Source of the DNA: a virus
DNA length: 38,720 nt
IMG/VR virus record: IMGVR_UViG_3300021961_000008
Span: 1 to 38,720 of that record
Direction: 5' to 3' (one strand)
Below the pieces are notes generated by a model. That model was not told the DNA's origin. It searched no databases and worked only from the letters and a program-made list of their open reading frames with translations. A program made the translations under genes and the position numbers. Below, piece by piece: positions 4,970-24,798 of the stretch; the first letter of the stretch is position 1, and each line of letters begins with the position of its first letter.

Positions 4970-5779
4970 TTATGCGGCGGCGGACCAGCCGCCCGGTGGT
5001 ACTGTTTGCGCGGTCCACGTCTCGGCCGGGGTCGCCTGCGCGGTCCACGGATCAATTGGCGCGGTCTGGGGGGTCCAAGTCGCCGCAGACGTTGCAATCG
5101 GGCCCCATGATTCGCCGGTATCAATTACGGGAAGCCATTGGATAGTGGCAACGCTTCCGGCGTAAACTGAACACTCACCACTGCCGATTAAAACTATAGC
5201 GCTTCCCGACACAGTTGCCGGGCCCGCAATGTCTACCGGCCCGCTAACCTCGGCAAGCTGCGCGATAGCACTAGCTACAATCAGCGCGCTGCCGTCTATC
5301 AATACGGCGGAAACTAAGGTGGCACTTGCTGACGCAACAGCATAAACGTCTGCCGCAATCGGCTTGAACGTAAACAAGTCGCCGGCAGCGGACGCAACGG
5401 CGGAGGCGTCTGCCGCAAGTTGGATGGACGTGGATAAGTCGCCGGCAACAGACGCAACGGCGGAGGCGTCTGCCGCAAGTTGGATGGACGTGGATAAGTC
5501 GCCGGCAACAGACGCAACGGCGAAAACGTCTGCCGCAAGTTGGATGGACGTAGACAAGTCGCCGGCAGCAGACGCAACGGCGGAAACGTTCGCCGCAAGC
5601 TGAATGGACGTGGACAAGTCGCCGGCAGCAGACGCAACGGCGGAAACGTTCGCCGCAAGCTGAATGGACGTGGACAAGTCGCCGGCAGCAGACGCAACGG
5701 CGGAAACGTTTGCCGCAAGCTGATTGTCGATTCTAATCGACGAAAACGGTGCTACGGAAAATGGCGCGATGGAAAACAT
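4970..5779 (-). CDS. Repeat-containing fibre-like protein with 20-residue repeats
   Basis: The product is 269 aa. Residues about 18-143 consist of six to seven copies of a 20-residue unit close to QLAADASAVASAAGDLSTSI, encoded by 60-bp DNA repeats. The units are Ala/Ser-rich, predicted helical or beta-rod-forming, and end in a degenerate copy (PIAADVYAVASASATLVSAV). The C-terminal 45 residues carry a second irregular Trp series (SWGPI, TWTPQT, PWTAQA, TWTAQT, GWSAA). A rod-like virion spacer is the natural inference; the family is unknown to me. The ATG at 5779 overlaps the TAA of a 13-codon remnant upstream (TAATG), and there is no strong ribosome site, so translation may depend on coupling. 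Confidence 0.75.
   Translation of the reverse strand: MFSIAPFSVAPFSSIRIDNQLAANVSAVASAAGDLSTSIQLAANVSAVASAAGDLSTSIQLAANVSAVASAAGDLSTSIQLAADVFAVASVAGDLSTSIQLAADASAVASVAGDLSTSIQLAADASAVASAAGDLFTFKPIAADVYAVASASATLVSAVLIDGSALIVASAIAQLAEVSGPVDIAGPATVSGSAIVLIGSGECSVYAGSVATIQWLPVIDTGESWGPIATSAATWTPQTAPIDPWTAQATPAETWTAQTVPPGGWSAAA
5341..5720. repeat. 60-bp tandem repeat array inside the fibre-like gene
   Basis: The period is exactly 60 bp for about 6.3 units. Units 5401-5460 and 5461-5520 are identical over all 60 bases, as are 5581-5640 and 5641-5700; 5521-5580 is intermediate, while 5341-5400 and the partial 5701-5720 are diverged ends. Two pairs of perfect neighbours mean recent duplication and a length that can change without breaking the frame. 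Confidence 0.95.
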
Positions 5780-16059: not shown

Positions 16060-16731
16060 CTACAAGGCGCCTGCCTCGCGCAGGACGCGGCGCACGGCCT
16101 CATGGCTGGCCTTGAGGCCGTGCTGGGCCTCCACAGCCGCGCTGATGGCCCGCAGGCTCGCGCCAGTGGCGCGCAGGGCCAGCATGGTGGCGATGGCCGC
16201 CTGCTGCTCCGGGATGGCCTCCAGCGTCGCGCTGCGGCCGTGGCCGATGGTGCGGTAGCCAAACGGGGCGCTGCCGCCGATGTGGCCGCCCTGCGCGCGC
16301 TTGTTGCGCTGGCCGGTCTTCTGACGGTCCTTGATGACCCGGCGCTCATGGCCGGCAAAGGCGCACAGGATTTCGAGCATCAGGCGGGCGTAGATGTTGC
16401 TGTCGTCGGTCACGTCGCCGTGGCCGTTCACGATCAGGCGCACGCCGGCCTGTTTGAAGCCGTGGACCGTGTTCAGCGCGTCGCGCAGGTCACGGCTGAA
16501 GCGGTCCAGCTTCGCGACGATGATGGTGTCGCCGCGGACCGGCTCGACACCGTGCGCGGCCAGACGGTCAACGAACGGCAGCGAGCCGGAGACGCCAGCG
16601 TCTTCGACCCACTGGGTAACGTCGAGGCCGTGCGCCATCGCGTTGCCGGCAATCTGGCGGCGCTGCTCGTCGAGGCTGGTGCCGTCCGCCTGCTCGGCGG
16701 TGCTGACGCGGATGTAGCCGTAGGTGCTCAT
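16060..16731 (-). CDS. Small serine recombinase (resolvase/invertase family)
   Basis: The product is 223 aa. The start YGYIRVSTAEQ gives the catalytic Ser10; DAGVSGSLPFVDR and KLDRFSRD (Arg77, Arg80) complete the active site; ARLMLEILCAFAGHERRVI is the long dimer helix. A short GHIGGSAPFGYR segment precedes a C-terminal helix-turn-helix (GASLRAISAAVEAQHGLKAS, then HEAVRRVLRE). The size fits resolvases and invertases, not large phage integrases. It may resolve multimers, invert a segment or integrate the genome; no recombination site was recognised. The ATG at 16731 carries the shared leader, and the track's longer frame is discarded for that reason. Confidence 0.87.
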   Translation of the reverse strand: MSTYGYIRVSTAEQADGTSLDEQRRQIAGNAMAHGLDVTQWVEDAGVSGSLPFVDRLAAHGVEPVRGDTIIVAKLDRFSRDLRDALNTVHGFKQAGVRLIVNGHGDVTDDSNIYARLMLEILCAFAGHERRVIKDRQKTGQRNKRAQGGHIGGSAPFGYRTIGHGRSATLEAIPEQQAAIATMLALRATGASLRAISAAVEAQHGLKASHEAVRRVLREAGAL

Positions 16732-16745
16732 GGTCGGGTCCTCGG

Positions 16746-17015
16746 TTAGGCGCCGCGGGCGGCTTTGATAATGCTGGCAAGATACCGGCGGGACGGCTGC
16801 GCGCCTTGGCAAACGCGGTAGCGGCCATTCCAACTGCTGCCGCTCCACACCTCAATGTCGCAAAAGTCGAAGTCGTAGGAGCGGTCCCAGATGGCGTCTT
16901 TGACGGTCTGGCGGCTGGCCTTGCACATCGTTACCAGCTCGCTGATCAGCAGCGGCTTTCCGGTCTCAATGAAGTGGTCCAGCAAAGTCTGGCGAATCAG
17001 GTCGGGCTTGCTCAT
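16746..17015 (-). CDS. Small putative DNA-binding (winged-helix-like) protein
   Basis: The product is 89 aa. The first half reads as a helix-turn-helix: DLIRQTLLDHFIETGKPLLI, then SELVTMCKASRQTVKDAIWD. The second half is a beta-rich wing (FDFCDIEVWSGSSWNGRYRV) and a short basic tail. It has the shared leader and is the first gene after the promoter at 17048-17076, so it may be an autoregulator of that promoter. The stop is 15 bases before the recombinase ATG. Confidence 0.7.
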   Translation of the reverse strand: MSKPDLIRQTLLDHFIETGKPLLISELVTMCKASRQTVKDAIWDRSYDFDFCDIEVWSGSSWNGRYRVCQGAQPSRRYLASIIKAARGA

Positions 17016-19541: not shown

Positions 19542-20063
19542 TCAGGCGCGGGGCGCCTTCGGGGCGCGTCGGCGCCGCGGCTCAGGGACCGCGTCAGGCT
19601 CAGGCGCCGGGCTTGTCAGGCCTTCGGTGTCAGGCTCGTACACGGGCCTGTCAGGCTCGTGCGTCAGGGCCTCCGCGCTGGCCTTGACAGCGGTCAGGTG
19701 CAGGTCGCCGAGGTTGACCTGCACGGCAACGCCGGCCCGGTCCGCGAAGCGGGTCGGGTCCCAGCGGCCGGCGAGCCAGCGCCGCGCGTCCACGCGCAGC
19801 CGGTCGCGCGCCACCTCACCCAGCACGTCATCCGCTATGGCCAGCGTCTCAGTGGCAAGCAGGTCCGCCGCCTTTTCCCTAGCTCGCGCGTATAGCCCCG
19901 CTTGCTCAGTCTGATCAAGCCACTTGGTCAGCGCCTGATATGGCACGTCCATTTGCTTGGCCACATCGGGCAGCGGAGTACCAGCCTCAAGCAACTCCCT
20001 CACCTCATCGCGTTTGTGGGCCAGCGTAACCAACCCGACCCGCGTTTTCAGCCGTCCAGCCAT
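19542..20063 (-). CDS. terS: Terminase small subunit (Sf6-like), putative
   Basis: The product is 173 aa. The N-terminal helix-turn-helix (GTPLPDVAKQMDVPYQALTK, then WLDQTEQAGLYARAREKAAD) is followed by LLATETLAIADDVLGEVARD, then RLRVDARRWLAGRWDPTRFA and DRAGVAVQVNL, the 'R..A..W...R..P..F.DR' signature of Sf6-type small terminases, which bind the packaging site and present DNA to the large subunit. The C-terminal 45 residues are a disordered Pro/Glu then Arg tail (PEPRRRRAPKAPRA). The ATG at 20063 follows GAGGAGGG; iterons begin 15 bases above it. Confidence 0.8.
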   Translation of the reverse strand: MAGRLKTRVGLVTLAHKRDEVRELLEAGTPLPDVAKQMDVPYQALTKWLDQTEQAGLYARAREKAADLLATETLAIADDVLGEVARDRLRVDARRWLAGRWDPTRFADRAGVAVQVNLGDLHLTAVKASAEALTHEPDRPVYEPDTEGLTSPAPEPDAVPEPRRRRAPKAPRA

Positions 20064-20199
20064 AAAACCCTCCTCTGTGACGCATGTGACGCATCTGTGA
20101 CGCATATTTCGGCCAGTCCGTCACACCTATCTTCTTGATTCATCGGCTAATTATCCCTCTGTGACGCAAATGACGCATATTTCCGACATTAAACCGCTC

Positions 20200-20236
20200 C
20201 ACACATGCGCGCGAGCGCGGGCGCGCGCGCGTACAC
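20200..20236. repeat. Alternating purine-pyrimidine tract (Z-DNA-prone)
   Basis: It reads CACACATGCGCGCG, AGCGCGG, then a GCGCGCGCGCGTACACAC run, nearly all alternating purine and pyrimidine. It lies at the centre between the two opposed iteron clusters. Confidence 0.8.
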
Positions 20237-20383
20237 ACCAAACTTGTCTAAAAATGCGTCATTTCAGTCACAGGCGTTTATTTCTCATTGCATTCAACCA
20301 CTTAAGTGTGACTCATCACAAAATAATGAGTCACAGATGCGTCATTTGCGTCACACACGGCCGAAAACGGCGCATCATCCCGG

Positions 20384-20450
20384 GAAAAGTTTCCGGAACA
20401 ATGCGTCATTTGCGTCACACGCCGAGAAAAGTTTCCGGAACAATGCGTCA
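20384..20450. repeat. 25-bp direct repeat in the iteron region
   Basis: Bases 20384-20408 and 20426-20450 are identical; each begins with the near-palindrome GAAAAGTTTCC and ends with one iteron. The period is 42 bp. Confidence 0.9.
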
Positions 20451-20456
20451 CGTCAG

Positions 20457-22847
20457 TCACGCGCCACCGACACCGAACTCACCACGCACCACGACACCGG
20501 CCGCCCGGCCCAGTTGTCCCGGCCCCAGCCGCACCGCCAGACCCGCAAACGCCCGCGCATCCCGCGTCCGCACGGCCTGCAATCCCCTCTGCTTGAGCGC
20601 GGCCGACAACCGCTTGGCGCTCCCAACGTACTCGCCCTGCTCGACCGCCCAGCCGCGCCAGCTCTCGAACAGCTCGGGAATGGTCGCGAACTCTGCCGGC
20701 CCCGCCGTGCAGCAGTCGTCGATCCAACGCCCGAACACGTCCTCCTCCTCGCAGTAATCGTCGGTCGCGTCGAGCACCGCCTGCGGCGGCCGGAGACCAT
20801 CGCGCTGCCACTCTAGGCACGCCTCGACCGCCCAGCCCATGATGGCCGGCAGCTCGGCCCTAAGCCGCTCTGGCAGCGTCTGGTCGACCACAGCAGGCGG
20901 CCGGATGAACGGCACCACATGCAGCCGACGCCTGATGCCGCTCTCGACGTTGCGAATGGCCGGGCGATGGTTGCCCAAAAACACCAGCTTGAACTGCGGC
21001 ACATAGGTGAACTCGTCGCGGTGCAGGAACCGCGCGGTGACCGGCTCGCCGCCCGTCAATTCCTTGACGCGACCCTCGGCCCATCGCCGGCCGTCCTGCG
21101 TCTCGCTAGCCCACACCAACCGCGCGCCGCGCAACCGCGCCAGCTCAGTCGGGTGCCGGTCCACGGTGCTAGCCACAAACGTCTCCATCTGCGACTTGAC
21201 CGCGTAGTCCCCCAGCAGCGACGCCACCAGCCCCGCAAAAACCGACTTGCCAGTGCCGCCCGGGCCGAACAGGAACGACAGGTGCTGCTCGTGCGTCTGC
21301 CCGGTCAGGCAGTACCCAATCAGCCGCCGCAGGTAGCCCAGCAGCGCATCGTCCTCGCCCGTGGCCCAGCGCAGGAACTCCAGCCACGCCACCGGCCGCG
21401 TCTTGCGGTCAGGCACCGCGCCCGCCACCCGCATCACCAGCTCGCCCCGGTGTCGGTCGCGCAGCACCCCGGTGCGCAGGTCCACGATGCCGCCGGGTGT
21501 GTTCAGCAGCATCGGGTCCGCGTCGAATTGCTCAGCCCGCACATTCACCCGGCGGTCCGCTCGGGCATAGGCCTCGCAGTTGTTGCGCGAGCTCACGCTC
21601 GACAGCCGCTCGGCCACCTTTGTCGCGCGCTCGGCCTTGTAGTCGCCCCGGGCCAGCACCTCGCGCGCGGCCTCTTGCAGCAGCGCCCCGGCCCAGTCCG
21701 CCACCAGCAGCGTCTCGTCCGGCGCCCAGCGCGAGCCGTCCCAGACCAGCCAGCCGCCCAGCGCGGCGCAGTGCTTGGCCTCGTGTGAGTGCGCCAGCAC
21801 CATCCGCGCCGCCATCGCCGCGTCGGTGTACTCCACCGTGCCCCGGCTCTCGACCTCGTCCGCAATCGGCTCCACCGGGAACTCCCACCCGGCCGCGTTC
21901 CAGCCATAGCGCGCGGCGCGGTCCGCCACCCATTGCCATCCGATCCGGTATGGCGAACGCATGCGCGCCCAGTCCCGGGCCACGTTTTGTGGGTCATTGT
22001 CTCCATCAGGCCAGCGCGCGGCCCATGCCTGATAGACCTGCAACGCGGCGCCCTCATCGGCCGCGCCCGCGGCCTTGATGGCGATGCCCACCGCGATGTA
22101 CTCCTCGTAGTTGGCGGCATCGTTGGGCATGGCCGCCACAGCGCTCGCCAGCAGGTCCAGAGACGGCGCGCGCAGTGAGTCCTGCGCAGGCGCATCCCCA
22201 GCCATCGCCACCGCACCCGTGCCCTCTCGCTCGACCTTGAGCCCCAGAAAATCCACCTCGGACTCAAGCGCGGCAAAGAATGCCTGCACCTTGTCCCGGT
22301 CGACCTCGCGCAGGCCCATTGGGCTCAGCTCGCACAAGTCCGCGTCCCACTCGTAGGGGCGGCCTGTGGTGGCGTGTGTGCCCGCGATGACGTACTGCTG
22401 CCCATCGGCCAGCATCTCGACCAGATGCCGCTTGCCGCTATCCTCAGTCAGCCACAGCCGCATCCGGCCGAACGGTGTCGAGCAGCGGTAGGCCAGCAGC
22501 CGCTTGGGGGCGCGTCCGATCCGACAGGGCGCCGGCCCCAGTATCTCCAACGCGAGCCGCTCGACGACCGCGGCGAGGTCCTCGTCCAGCACATCGATGT
22601 CGAGCGCCGGATAGGTCCGCGCCCGCAGGCCGATGCTGGCCCCGGTGCGGTCCATCGTCTGCGCATCGGACAGACGCACCTCGGCGCGGCGCCAGTCGTA
22701 CCCGGCCCACCCCGCGCCACCCAATCGCGCTGGCGCCTTGCCCAGCGCATCCGGCTTGATATTGCTAGCCGGAGACAACGCGGCGCCCGGAGGCGCCACG
22801 CTGACGAGGTCCGTAAACCCCGCCGAAAATAGTTGTTCTGCTCTCAC
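20457..22847 (-). CDS. Primase-helicase (Prim-Pol, D5, SF3 helicase)
   Basis: The product is 796 aa from the GTG at 22847. The N-terminal ~200 residues match a bifunctional primase-polymerase domain (PALDIDVLDEDLAAVVERLA, then GRAPKRLLAYRC). A middle segment (VGIAIKAAGAADEGAALQVY, then QAWAARWPDGDN) is the primase C-terminal type. The D5 N-terminal domain (HCAALGGWLVWDGSRWAPDE) leads to the SF3 ATPase: Walker A LFGPGGTGKS near residue 528, an acidic LVWASETQDGRRW, and sensor KLVFLGNHRP. It would prime and unwind phage DNA. ATG codons upstream belong to the polymerase overlap, and GTG is preceded by GAGGGG. It lies next to the iterons. Confidence 0.88.
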   Translation of the reverse strand: MRAEQLFSAGFTDLVSVAPPGAALSPASNIKPDALGKAPARLGGAGWAGYDWRRAEVRLSDAQTMDRTGASIGLRARTYPALDIDVLDEDLAAVVERLALEILGPAPCRIGRAPKRLLAYRCSTPFGRMRLWLTEDSGKRHLVEMLADGQQYVIAGTHATTGRPYEWDADLCELSPMGLREVDRDKVQAFFAALESEVDFLGLKVEREGTGAVAMAGDAPAQDSLRAPSLDLLASAVAAMPNDAANYEEYIAVGIAIKAAGAADEGAALQVYQAWAARWPDGDNDPQNVARDWARMRSPYRIGWQWVADRAARYGWNAAGWEFPVEPIADEVESRGTVEYTDAAMAARMVLAHSHEAKHCAALGGWLVWDGSRWAPDETLLVADWAGALLQEAAREVLARGDYKAERATKVAERLSSVSSRNNCEAYARADRRVNVRAEQFDADPMLLNTPGGIVDLRTGVLRDRHRGELVMRVAGAVPDRKTRPVAWLEFLRWATGEDDALLGYLRRLIGYCLTGQTHEQHLSFLFGPGGTGKSVFAGLVASLLGDYAVKSQMETFVASTVDRHPTELARLRGARLVWASETQDGRRWAEGRVKELTGGEPVTARFLHRDEFTYVPQFKLVFLGNHRPAIRNVESGIRRRLHVVPFIRPPAVVDQTLPERLRAELPAIMGWAVEACLEWQRDGLRPPQAVLDATDDYCEEEDVFGRWIDDCCTAGPAEFATIPELFESWRGWAVEQGEYVGSAKRLSAALKQRGLQAVRTRDARAFAGLAVRLGPGQLGRAAGVVVRGEFGVGGA

Positions 22848-22854
22848 GTTCCCC

Positions 22855-24798
22855 TCACTTTCTGTATCGTTGCCCTTTCCAACCCTCGGCCGCCAGCGGC
22901 AGCCCGGATGCCCATAATGGCGCATCACACATCGCATCTTCCAGAGCCGGCACTGATGCCTGTTCTTCTGGGACCTCGCAAACAATTTCGTCGTGTACCG
23001 ACAGCACGACCGGCATGCCGGCCTTTTCTGTCGTCAGCATTGCATGCCAAAGCAGATCCGCCGCGATGGCCTGCACCGCGTTTTCGACCAGCAGCCCACT
23101 GTACAGATCGCGCGGGGCCCACTGCCGAGTTACCGAATTGACGCCCCAGACGCGCACCGCCGGCTGGGTCGAGCCCCACGGGGTGGCGCGGTCCACCAGC
23201 GCCGGTTTGGCGTAGGCCAGCGCGCGCCCGGACGGCAGCTCCATGCGCAGGAATCGGTCCCGGAACTGAAACCGGACCTTGTCTCCGACGCGGTACACCG
23301 CGCCCGGGCTTTCCATCGCCGCGACACAAGCCTGCTCCATCTGCTTCCAGAGCCGCGTGATTGCCGTGTTCGAGCCTCGATACACATCCACGACACGCTT
23401 GGCCTCTTCTGCATCGATGTCGACGTTCTGGGCGCCGCAGGAATCGCGAAACTTGACGTGGCCCATGCCATACCCAAGGCCCAGCACGGCCATCTTGGCA
23501 AGCTGCCGTTCGCCCTTTGTGATGCGGTCCGCCGGCTTGGCGTAGATGCGGGAACCCATCTCCCGATACACGTCGCCACCATCCGCAAACGTCTGCAAGA
23601 GCGCATCCTCCCCGGCCAGCCACGCCAGCACCCGGGCCTCGATGGCAGCGTAGTCCGCAGCCACCAGCAGATGCCCCGGCGCGGCCATCATCATCGGCCG
23701 CAGCATCGACGACAGCACCTCCAGCACCGGATAGTGAACGTCGATGCCGTCGATGTCTCCGGCTAGCACGTCGGGGATAAAACGCTCGGGCTTGTTGACT
23801 GCACCGCGCGGGAAGTTCTGCGGCTGCACGAGCTGGCCAGACCAGCGCCCGGTGGAGGCGCCGTGGAACATCATCAGGCCCCGCAGGCGCCCGTCCTCGC
23901 AGACGCACTCCAGCATCGTGTTGACCTTGGCCACCGACGACCGGCCAAACTCCTCGCGCAGGCGCAGCGCTGTCTCCTGCTCTGGCAGCAGGTCTGGCAG
24001 CTCCAGCATGCGGCTGACGTTAAGTTTGTCGACGCCCGGAGTCTCTAGCCCGCTCTCGCGCAGCCACGCGGTGAGCTGCGCCGCGCTGGTGACCGCGCTG
24101 ACCGCGTTGTTTGTTGCCTGACGCATCGCGGCGTCGGCGAGGTCGGTAGCCTGCTCGGCCATCTTTTGCGCGGCTTGCGCGAGCTCACGGTCCAGCAGGA
24201 TACCGCGGTCGTTGATCGTCTGGTCGAGCAGGTACACCTCGCGGCTCAGCGGCGGCAGCTCCGGGATGACCTGCGCGCAAGCGCTCTCGGTGCGCACGTC
24301 CTGTTTGCAGTACTCGACTAGCGCGCTGACTTTTTCCCGCTGATGCCACCAGACCGGGCCGCTGTCGGCTATCAACCGCGGCCGGCACATTTGCAACATC
24401 AGCCGCTGGCCGCTGCCGTCCTTCTGGTCCAAGACGCCCAGCACCTTAGCAGCGTCGCCGAGTTTGTTGGGCAGCGCCATCGCTCGCGCATCCGCGGCCG
24501 TGCAGTACCACTGCTCGCGCGGGATGGCCGGGAATCGATAGCGCGGGACCATAATCCGGTCCCAGATGCGCCGCTCGAACCCGGCGTTCCACGCTCGCAT
24601 TGGCACGCCCTGCGCGATTAACGACAGCAGCTCCACGTCCCAGCCGCTGATGCCGGGGCGCCACTCGCGAACCTCATCATCGAAGGGCAGCCGGTAGGCC
24701 ATACACCAGACATCGGTAGTAGGGTCTTCGGTGTAGCGGTACACGCCGACCGCGCGCAGGTCGCTACAGCTCCGGGTCTCGAAGTCGATGCTGATCAT
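22855..24798 (-). CDS. Family A DNA polymerase with 3'-5' exonuclease
   Basis: The product is 647 aa. The exonuclease has DFET (Asp5, Glu7), WNAGFE (70-75) and YCKQDV (163-168). The polymerase has the TGRWS/QPQNFPRG block (316-332), motif A ADYAAIEARVLAWL (381-394), motif B RQLAKMAVLGLGYG (431-444) with Lys435, and motif C VHDE (601-604). All catalytic residues are present, and there is no 5' nuclease domain. It is the phage replicase, sharing an operon with the primase-helicase, from which it is separated by 7 bases. The ATG at 24798 overlaps the gene upstream by 4 bp. Confidence 0.93.
   Translation of the reverse strand: MISIDFETRSCSDLRAVGVYRYTEDPTTDVWCMAYRLPFDDEVREWRPGISGWDVELLSLIAQGVPMRAWNAGFERRIWDRIMVPRYRFPAIPREQWYCTAADARAMALPNKLGDAAKVLGVLDQKDGSGQRLMLQMCRPRLIADSGPVWWHQREKVSALVEYCKQDVRTESACAQVIPELPPLSREVYLLDQTINDRGILLDRELAQAAQKMAEQATDLADAAMRQATNNAVSAVTSAAQLTAWLRESGLETPGVDKLNVSRMLELPDLLPEQETALRLREEFGRSSVAKVNTMLECVCEDGRLRGLMMFHGASTGRWSGQLVQPQNFPRGAVNKPERFIPDVLAGDIDGIDVHYPVLEVLSSMLRPMMMAAPGHLLVAADYAAIEARVLAWLAGEDALLQTFADGGDVYREMGSRIYAKPADRITKGERQLAKMAVLGLGYGMGHVKFRDSCGAQNVDIDAEEAKRVVDVYRGSNTAITRLWKQMEQACVAAMESPGAVYRVGDKVRFQFRDRFLRMELPSGRALAYAKPALVDRATPWGSTQPAVRVWGVNSVTRQWAPRDLYSGLLVENAVQAIAADLLWHAMLTTEKAGMPVVLSVHDEIVCEVPEEQASVPALEDAMCDAPLWASGLPLAAEGWKGQRYRK

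Follow-up and report, generated by a model that had tools for sequence, protein, structure and literature searches.

The non-coding stretch at positions 20064-20456 of the 38.7-kb viral sequence analysed here (referred to as the window) lies between a primase-helicase gene and the gene for the terminase small subunit (terS), which raises the question of whether its dense array of iterons serves replication, packaging or both. On the basis of sequence comparison this region is a candidate replication origin, with a probability of roughly 0.88, whose iterons would be bound by the C-terminal winged helix of the adjacent primase-helicase. The layout suggests an origin like that of phage P4, but with two mirror-image halves flanking an alternating core.

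A site count bore out the eleven exact copies of TGACGCA originally predicted for this region, with five on the plus strand to the left (20078, 20087, 20098, 20162 and 20171) and six on the minus strand to the right (20255, 20338, 20347, 20402, 20411 and 20444). Across the whole window 19 sites occur against 7.6 expected, and eleven within 393 bp corresponds to a Poisson p of about 1e-20. The predicted pairing at a 9-bp pitch was real for four pairs, and the 10-bp inverted repeat was exact (20307-20316 and 20326-20335). Degenerate copies were also present, although the first reading missed some of those scored at no more than two mismatches to the consensus TGTGACGCA (20117 (-), 20264 (-), 20307 (+) and 20327 (-)). 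The predicted 25-bp direct repeat was real but belonged to a larger 42-bp tandem duplication (20380-20421 and 20422-20463, 86% identity), within which the minus-strand sites at offsets 326, 335 and 368 fall. The region has a G+C content of 49.6% relative to 63.9% for the window, is overlapped only by antisense open reading frames (20161-20757 and 20205-20816, both extending into the primase gene) and gave no match in an Rfam scan. The densest repeats of the window are found in a 269-aa ORF at 4970-5779 (-), which consists largely of QLAANVSAVASAAGDLSTSI-like repeats of about 20 residues.

With up to two mismatches to TGTGACGCA allowed, the stretch from 20076 to 20355 contains twelve sites that mirror each other exactly around 20215.5-20216, inside the GCGCGC tract, at offsets of +0, +9, +20, -41, +84, +93, -179, -188, +231, -251, -262 and -271. 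The full 12-site mirror was never reached in 2000 trials of random placement, where the maximum was 9 of 12. The core includes an unbroken alternating run of 18 nt (20221-20238). The features of the locus are collected in Table 1.

Table 1. Coordinates of the array and its flanking genes in the window
Feature	Position	Strand	Remark
Terminase small subunit gene, Sf6-type	19542..20063	-	Array neighbour; candidate user only
Outer left module: TGTGACGCA at 20076, 20085 and 20096 (+), inverted copy at 20117 (-)	20076..20125	+	
Inner left iteron pair, 9-bp pitch, TGTGACGCA AATGACGCA	20160..20177	+	
Alternating pyrimidine-purine core with few interruptions, holding the dyad centre at 20216	20199..20240		
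Inner right pair of iterons, TGCGTCATT TCAGTCACA, of which one is degenerate	20255..20272	-	
Outer right module, mirroring the left one: 20307 (+), 20327, 20338 and 20347 (-), with the 10-bp inverted repeat inside	20307..20355	-	
Extra right-hand iterons at 20402, 20411 and 20444 in the 42-bp tandem duplication	20380..20463	-	
P4/D5-family primase-helicase gene, putative iteron reader	20457..22985	-	
C-terminal winged-helix domain of the primase-helicase	20532..20738	-	AlphaFold2 models
Predicted recognition helix; GSAKRLS at helix start holds the covarying Lys/Arg position	20589..20618	-	

The left half of the mirror (0, 9, 20, inverted 41, 84 and 93) has, within three bases, the layout of the annotated type I repeats of the P4 ori (0, 10, 21, inverted 42, 86 and 96). 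Six type I-like iterons in the order + + + - + + are present in the half-array; if sites were placed uniformly, as a simple null model, such P4-like spacing would arise by chance with a probability of about 6e-6. The iterons of the P4 ori and of the window share a GTGA core read in the same direction. Homology between the P4 initiator alpha and the primase-helicase of the window was seen with BLASTP (E 4e-9) and with hhalign (E 4e-14 over 377 columns), and both proteins have a winged-helix origin-binding fold, which for the window protein is predicted from the fold only.

The primase-helicase contains Prim-Pol, PriCT-2, D5_N and DUF5906 domains and is a member of TIGR01613; its listed TTG start is doubtful and the true start probably lies near 22848. 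An AlphaFold2 model (mean pLDDT 89) contained a C-terminal winged helix, which when modelled alone aligned with RFX, AsfvPrimPol and the P4 origin-binding domain 1ka8. The last of these was absent among the best 50 Foldseek matches listed and surfaced with VIA-align (Z 7.8, 79 aligned), and the likeness supports rather than proves a P4-type binding domain since a middling Z may reflect the common winged-helix fold. The C-terminal winged helix of the primase-helicase would be the better candidate for the iteron reader, while nothing links the array to the two other candidates from the same genome, a 159-aa HTH protein and a winged-helix ORF.

Searches with the primase as query covered named phages as well as viral contigs and bacterial genomes, and showed that the architecture recurs. 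In numerous phages and prophages, opposed iteron pairs at a 9-bp pitch, about 77-87 bp apart on either side of a centred alternating tract, lie just 3' of a P4/D5 primase-helicase gene. The median distance from the primase stop to the array was 24 bp (177 arrays, partly redundant) and the pair-to-pair distance in primase-adjacent arrays clustered at 73-89 bp. Iteron sequences varied among arrays and included TGTGACGGA, TCTGACGCA, AGTGACGTT, AACGAGGCA and TCGAAGGGA among others; the iteron of the window was common to primase-adjacent arrays of other contigs. A score of at least 29 was obtained for 46% of 68 non-redundant downstream regions compared with 0.04% of 2252 control windows drawn from the same loci. 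The 'four' detector misses degenerate arrays and other pitches, and its best scores below 28 are not meaningful. One candidate array (L009) was rejected as a chance match within a gene. The alternating pyrimidine-purine run in the array core had a median of 21 nt in 73 relatives and 6 nt in controls, reached at least 14 nt in 75% of cores versus 0.8% of controls, and was centred at 0.49 of the core. This statistic is independent of array selection because the iteron detector, not the core, chose the arrays.

Primase synteny alone failed for the closest relatives of the window, and their arrays were located via the alternating tract and repeats. In G008, where the primase is 42% identical and the iteron is TGTGACAGA, sites were found at +0, +9, +20, -39, +85, +94, -180, -256, -265 and -274, and in G007 the outer sites were mirrored, lying at 0, 21, 32 and 44 on the left and at equal distances from the right end. 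In G006 (the L028 genome; L273 890-1060) the array upstream of terS is weak: its pitch is 8 bp (TGACGnnC TGACAC) and its core is rich in A instead of alternating. The nearest relatives count against the origin reading in that their arrays lie by terS, with the primase as much as 14 kb away.

One residue of the predicted recognition helix covaried with one base of the iteron. Of the 59 scored loci with Arg at this position, 57 had GACGC iterons, none had GACGG and two had neither. With Lys, the iterons were GACGG in 59, while GACGC or mixed iterons occurred in a few real arrays. The window itself is an exception to the covariation as it combines Lys with GACGC. A tree based solely on the helicase domain, and so excluding the winged helix, gave 11 independent contrasts, of which 10-11 ran in the same direction and none in the opposite direction; well-supported branches alone left five contrasts, at about p 0.06. 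A whole-domain partial Mantel test gave a weak correlation (0.105, p 0.017). Joint transfer is a partial alternative to coevolution of residue and iteron, and could mimic it because the Lys/Arg codon and the array adjoin in most loci. In G002 and G004, whose arrays do not adjoin the primase, Lys was found with GAAGG iterons, as the covariation rule predicts.

Under the origin reading, the C-terminal winged helix of the primase-helicase would bind the TGTGACGCA iterons, and the two mirror-image sets, each a triplet, an inverted single and a pair, would position two helicase assemblies, loaded as a double hexamer, face to face on either side of the alternating tract. The ATP-driven hexamers might then melt the central tract, with the core as the proposed opening or loading site, after which the fused primase domain would prime both strands and the phage family-A DNA polymerase would extend them in bidirectional forks. 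GC skew was rejected as origin evidence: a change occurs near 20 kb with a sign opposite to that of an origin, and the measure is confounded because the main genes lie on one strand.

A rival reading, which takes up the other half of the original prediction, is a packaging (pac) site, with or without an additional role in replication, at which TerS would bind the repeats and start headful packaging. SPP1-type TerS proteins bind repeats near their own gene, and the terS start is 13 bp from the array. The array is also located just upstream of terS in the five closest relatives with enough sequence (G002, G004, G006 (weakly), G007 and G008), at a distance from the primase of about 3 kb in G002 and about 14 kb in G007, and in G004 TerL spans the junction of the joined contig ends, as expected of a circularly permuted genome. 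A packaging role is therefore possible in the window lineage, where the array stays upstream of terS even with a distant primase. Overall it is unsupported, since elsewhere arrays of the same architecture precede RuvC-/RusA-like resolvase genes or TerS-like genes apparently unrelated to Sf6 TerS, where the TerS and some RuvC assignments reflect a reading of the sequences by eye. No tie of the array to one TerS family was seen across relatives, with the Sf6-like TerS kept only in the window lineage, and the feature common to the arrays is the primase family rather than the downstream gene. The presence of the window iteron beside primases in other contigs, the covariation with the primase winged helix and the spacing shared with the P4 ori likewise argue against packaging, which we consider unlikely. 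An origin, in contrast, is strongly supported by the P4-like spacing, the conserved pairs beside the primase and the covariation, while the pac half of the prediction drew no positive evidence beyond position; the same is true of the suggestion that one array is read by two proteins. A serine recombinase of the resolvase family (E 3.6e-30) is encoded at 16060-16848 (-), between terL and terS.

A cruciform origin, recognised by its DNA secondary structure and not by iterons, was proposed by Berkner et al. (2014) for pRN1 and phage BIP-1 (PMC4234260). The minimal replicon of pRN1 requires a 100-bp element just downstream of the primase-helicase gene, and this element and its BIP-1 counterpart were read by the authors as a stem-loop without iterons (PMC4234260). 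Function in pRN1 needed arm symmetry, as an arm mutant was rescued by a symmetric second mutation, and sequence-specific binding was undetected, which together favour a structural role in pRN1 and speak against a simple iteron reading (PMC4234260). The arms of the window array are likewise inverted repeats. They are nevertheless built of 9-bp tandem units whose sequence tracks the primase winged helix, and in the homologous P4 ori the iterons are direct repeats that form no single large hairpin; recognition of a cruciform is regarded as unlikely. Very unlikely is a control element for late genes, an operator or promoter to which a phage regulator would bind. The position before terS, the first late gene, and the palindromic half-sites within the array would suit such an element, but no sigma-70-like promoter or terminator was found in a scan (a weak test), no dedicated regulator was linked to the array, and an operator is not expected to form a 12-site mirror around a conserved, centred alternating tract in phages whose neighbouring genes differ.

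The preferred reading, an iteron origin bound by the primase-helicase, may extend beyond this genome. The chances are slightly better than even that it represents a widespread, little-recognised origin class, defined by opposed pairs at a 9-bp pitch about seven to eight helical turns apart, a centred alternating tract replacing the A+T-rich opening element, a P4/D5 winged-helix reader and a residue-base code that can be decoded in part. The 'stem-loops' of pRN1 and BPP-1 would belong to this class. If true, this would provide a sequence rule for locating origins in phages, prophages and related elements with P4/D5-family primase-helicases, would turn the pRN1 and BPP-1 'stem-loop' origins into iteron origins, and would offer a testable recognition code of Lys/Arg against G/C. 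It would also raise the question of how an alternating tract that is rich in G+C, and not in A+T, is opened by helicases of the SF3 type. The opposed-pair architecture was undescribed in the open literature on BPP-1, AcaML1, Sfi21 and P4 type I iterons, a result of little weight with subscription journals outside its scope.

Among known systems, P4 has a single half-origin beside A+T-rich DNA and no alternating tract, whereas the window has two putative half-origins mirrored about an alternating core. No P4-style A+T-rich opening region was found in the window, the core being G+C-rich alternating pyrimidine-purine, and no P4-style type II repeats were seen at the array. P4 requires both ori and crr, while no further iteron cluster that could be a second, crr-like cis site was present within the window. 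The primase domain is Toprim in P4 alpha and Prim-Pol (AEP) in the window protein. The P4 crr (L282 4313-4585) is directly downstream of the alpha gene and carries one 9-bp-pitch iteron pair per 120-bp repeat, resembling half of the inner module of primase-adjacent arrays.

In SCCmec, the D5_N-family helicase Cch2 uses its C-terminal domain to bind iterons that lie directly 3' of its own gene, and the same is reported for SaPI Rep proteins (PMC7581432). SaPI5 Rep and Cch2 resemble the window in the D5_N/Primase_Cterm helicase, the C-terminal DNA-binding domain and the iterons directly downstream; the Cch2 site differs in its three AAGTG direct repeats, with no opposed-pair dyad or alternating core described (PMC7581432). 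In Bordetella phage BPP-1/BIP-1, for which a stem-loop was the earlier proposal, the array 3' of bbp29 (L016 10937-11038) consists of inner pairs only, with opposed AACGAGGCA pairs at 0, 9, 84 and 93 and a 14-nt alternating run. This array is about 470 bp past the primase gene, with the annotated bbp28 ORF between them on the other strand, and this ORF may be spurious. The arms of pRN1, TTATGTCCATAGTGTCCAACT, hold TGTCCA twice at a 9-bp pitch with an opposed mirror pair 79 bp off (L261 5084-5183), and a weaker GGAC version of these pairs was seen in pRN2. Although pRN1 is an archaeal plasmid without a long alternating tract, it shares with the window opposed 9-bp-pitch pairs within about 100 bp, downstream of a gene for an AEP-SF3-winged-helix protein.
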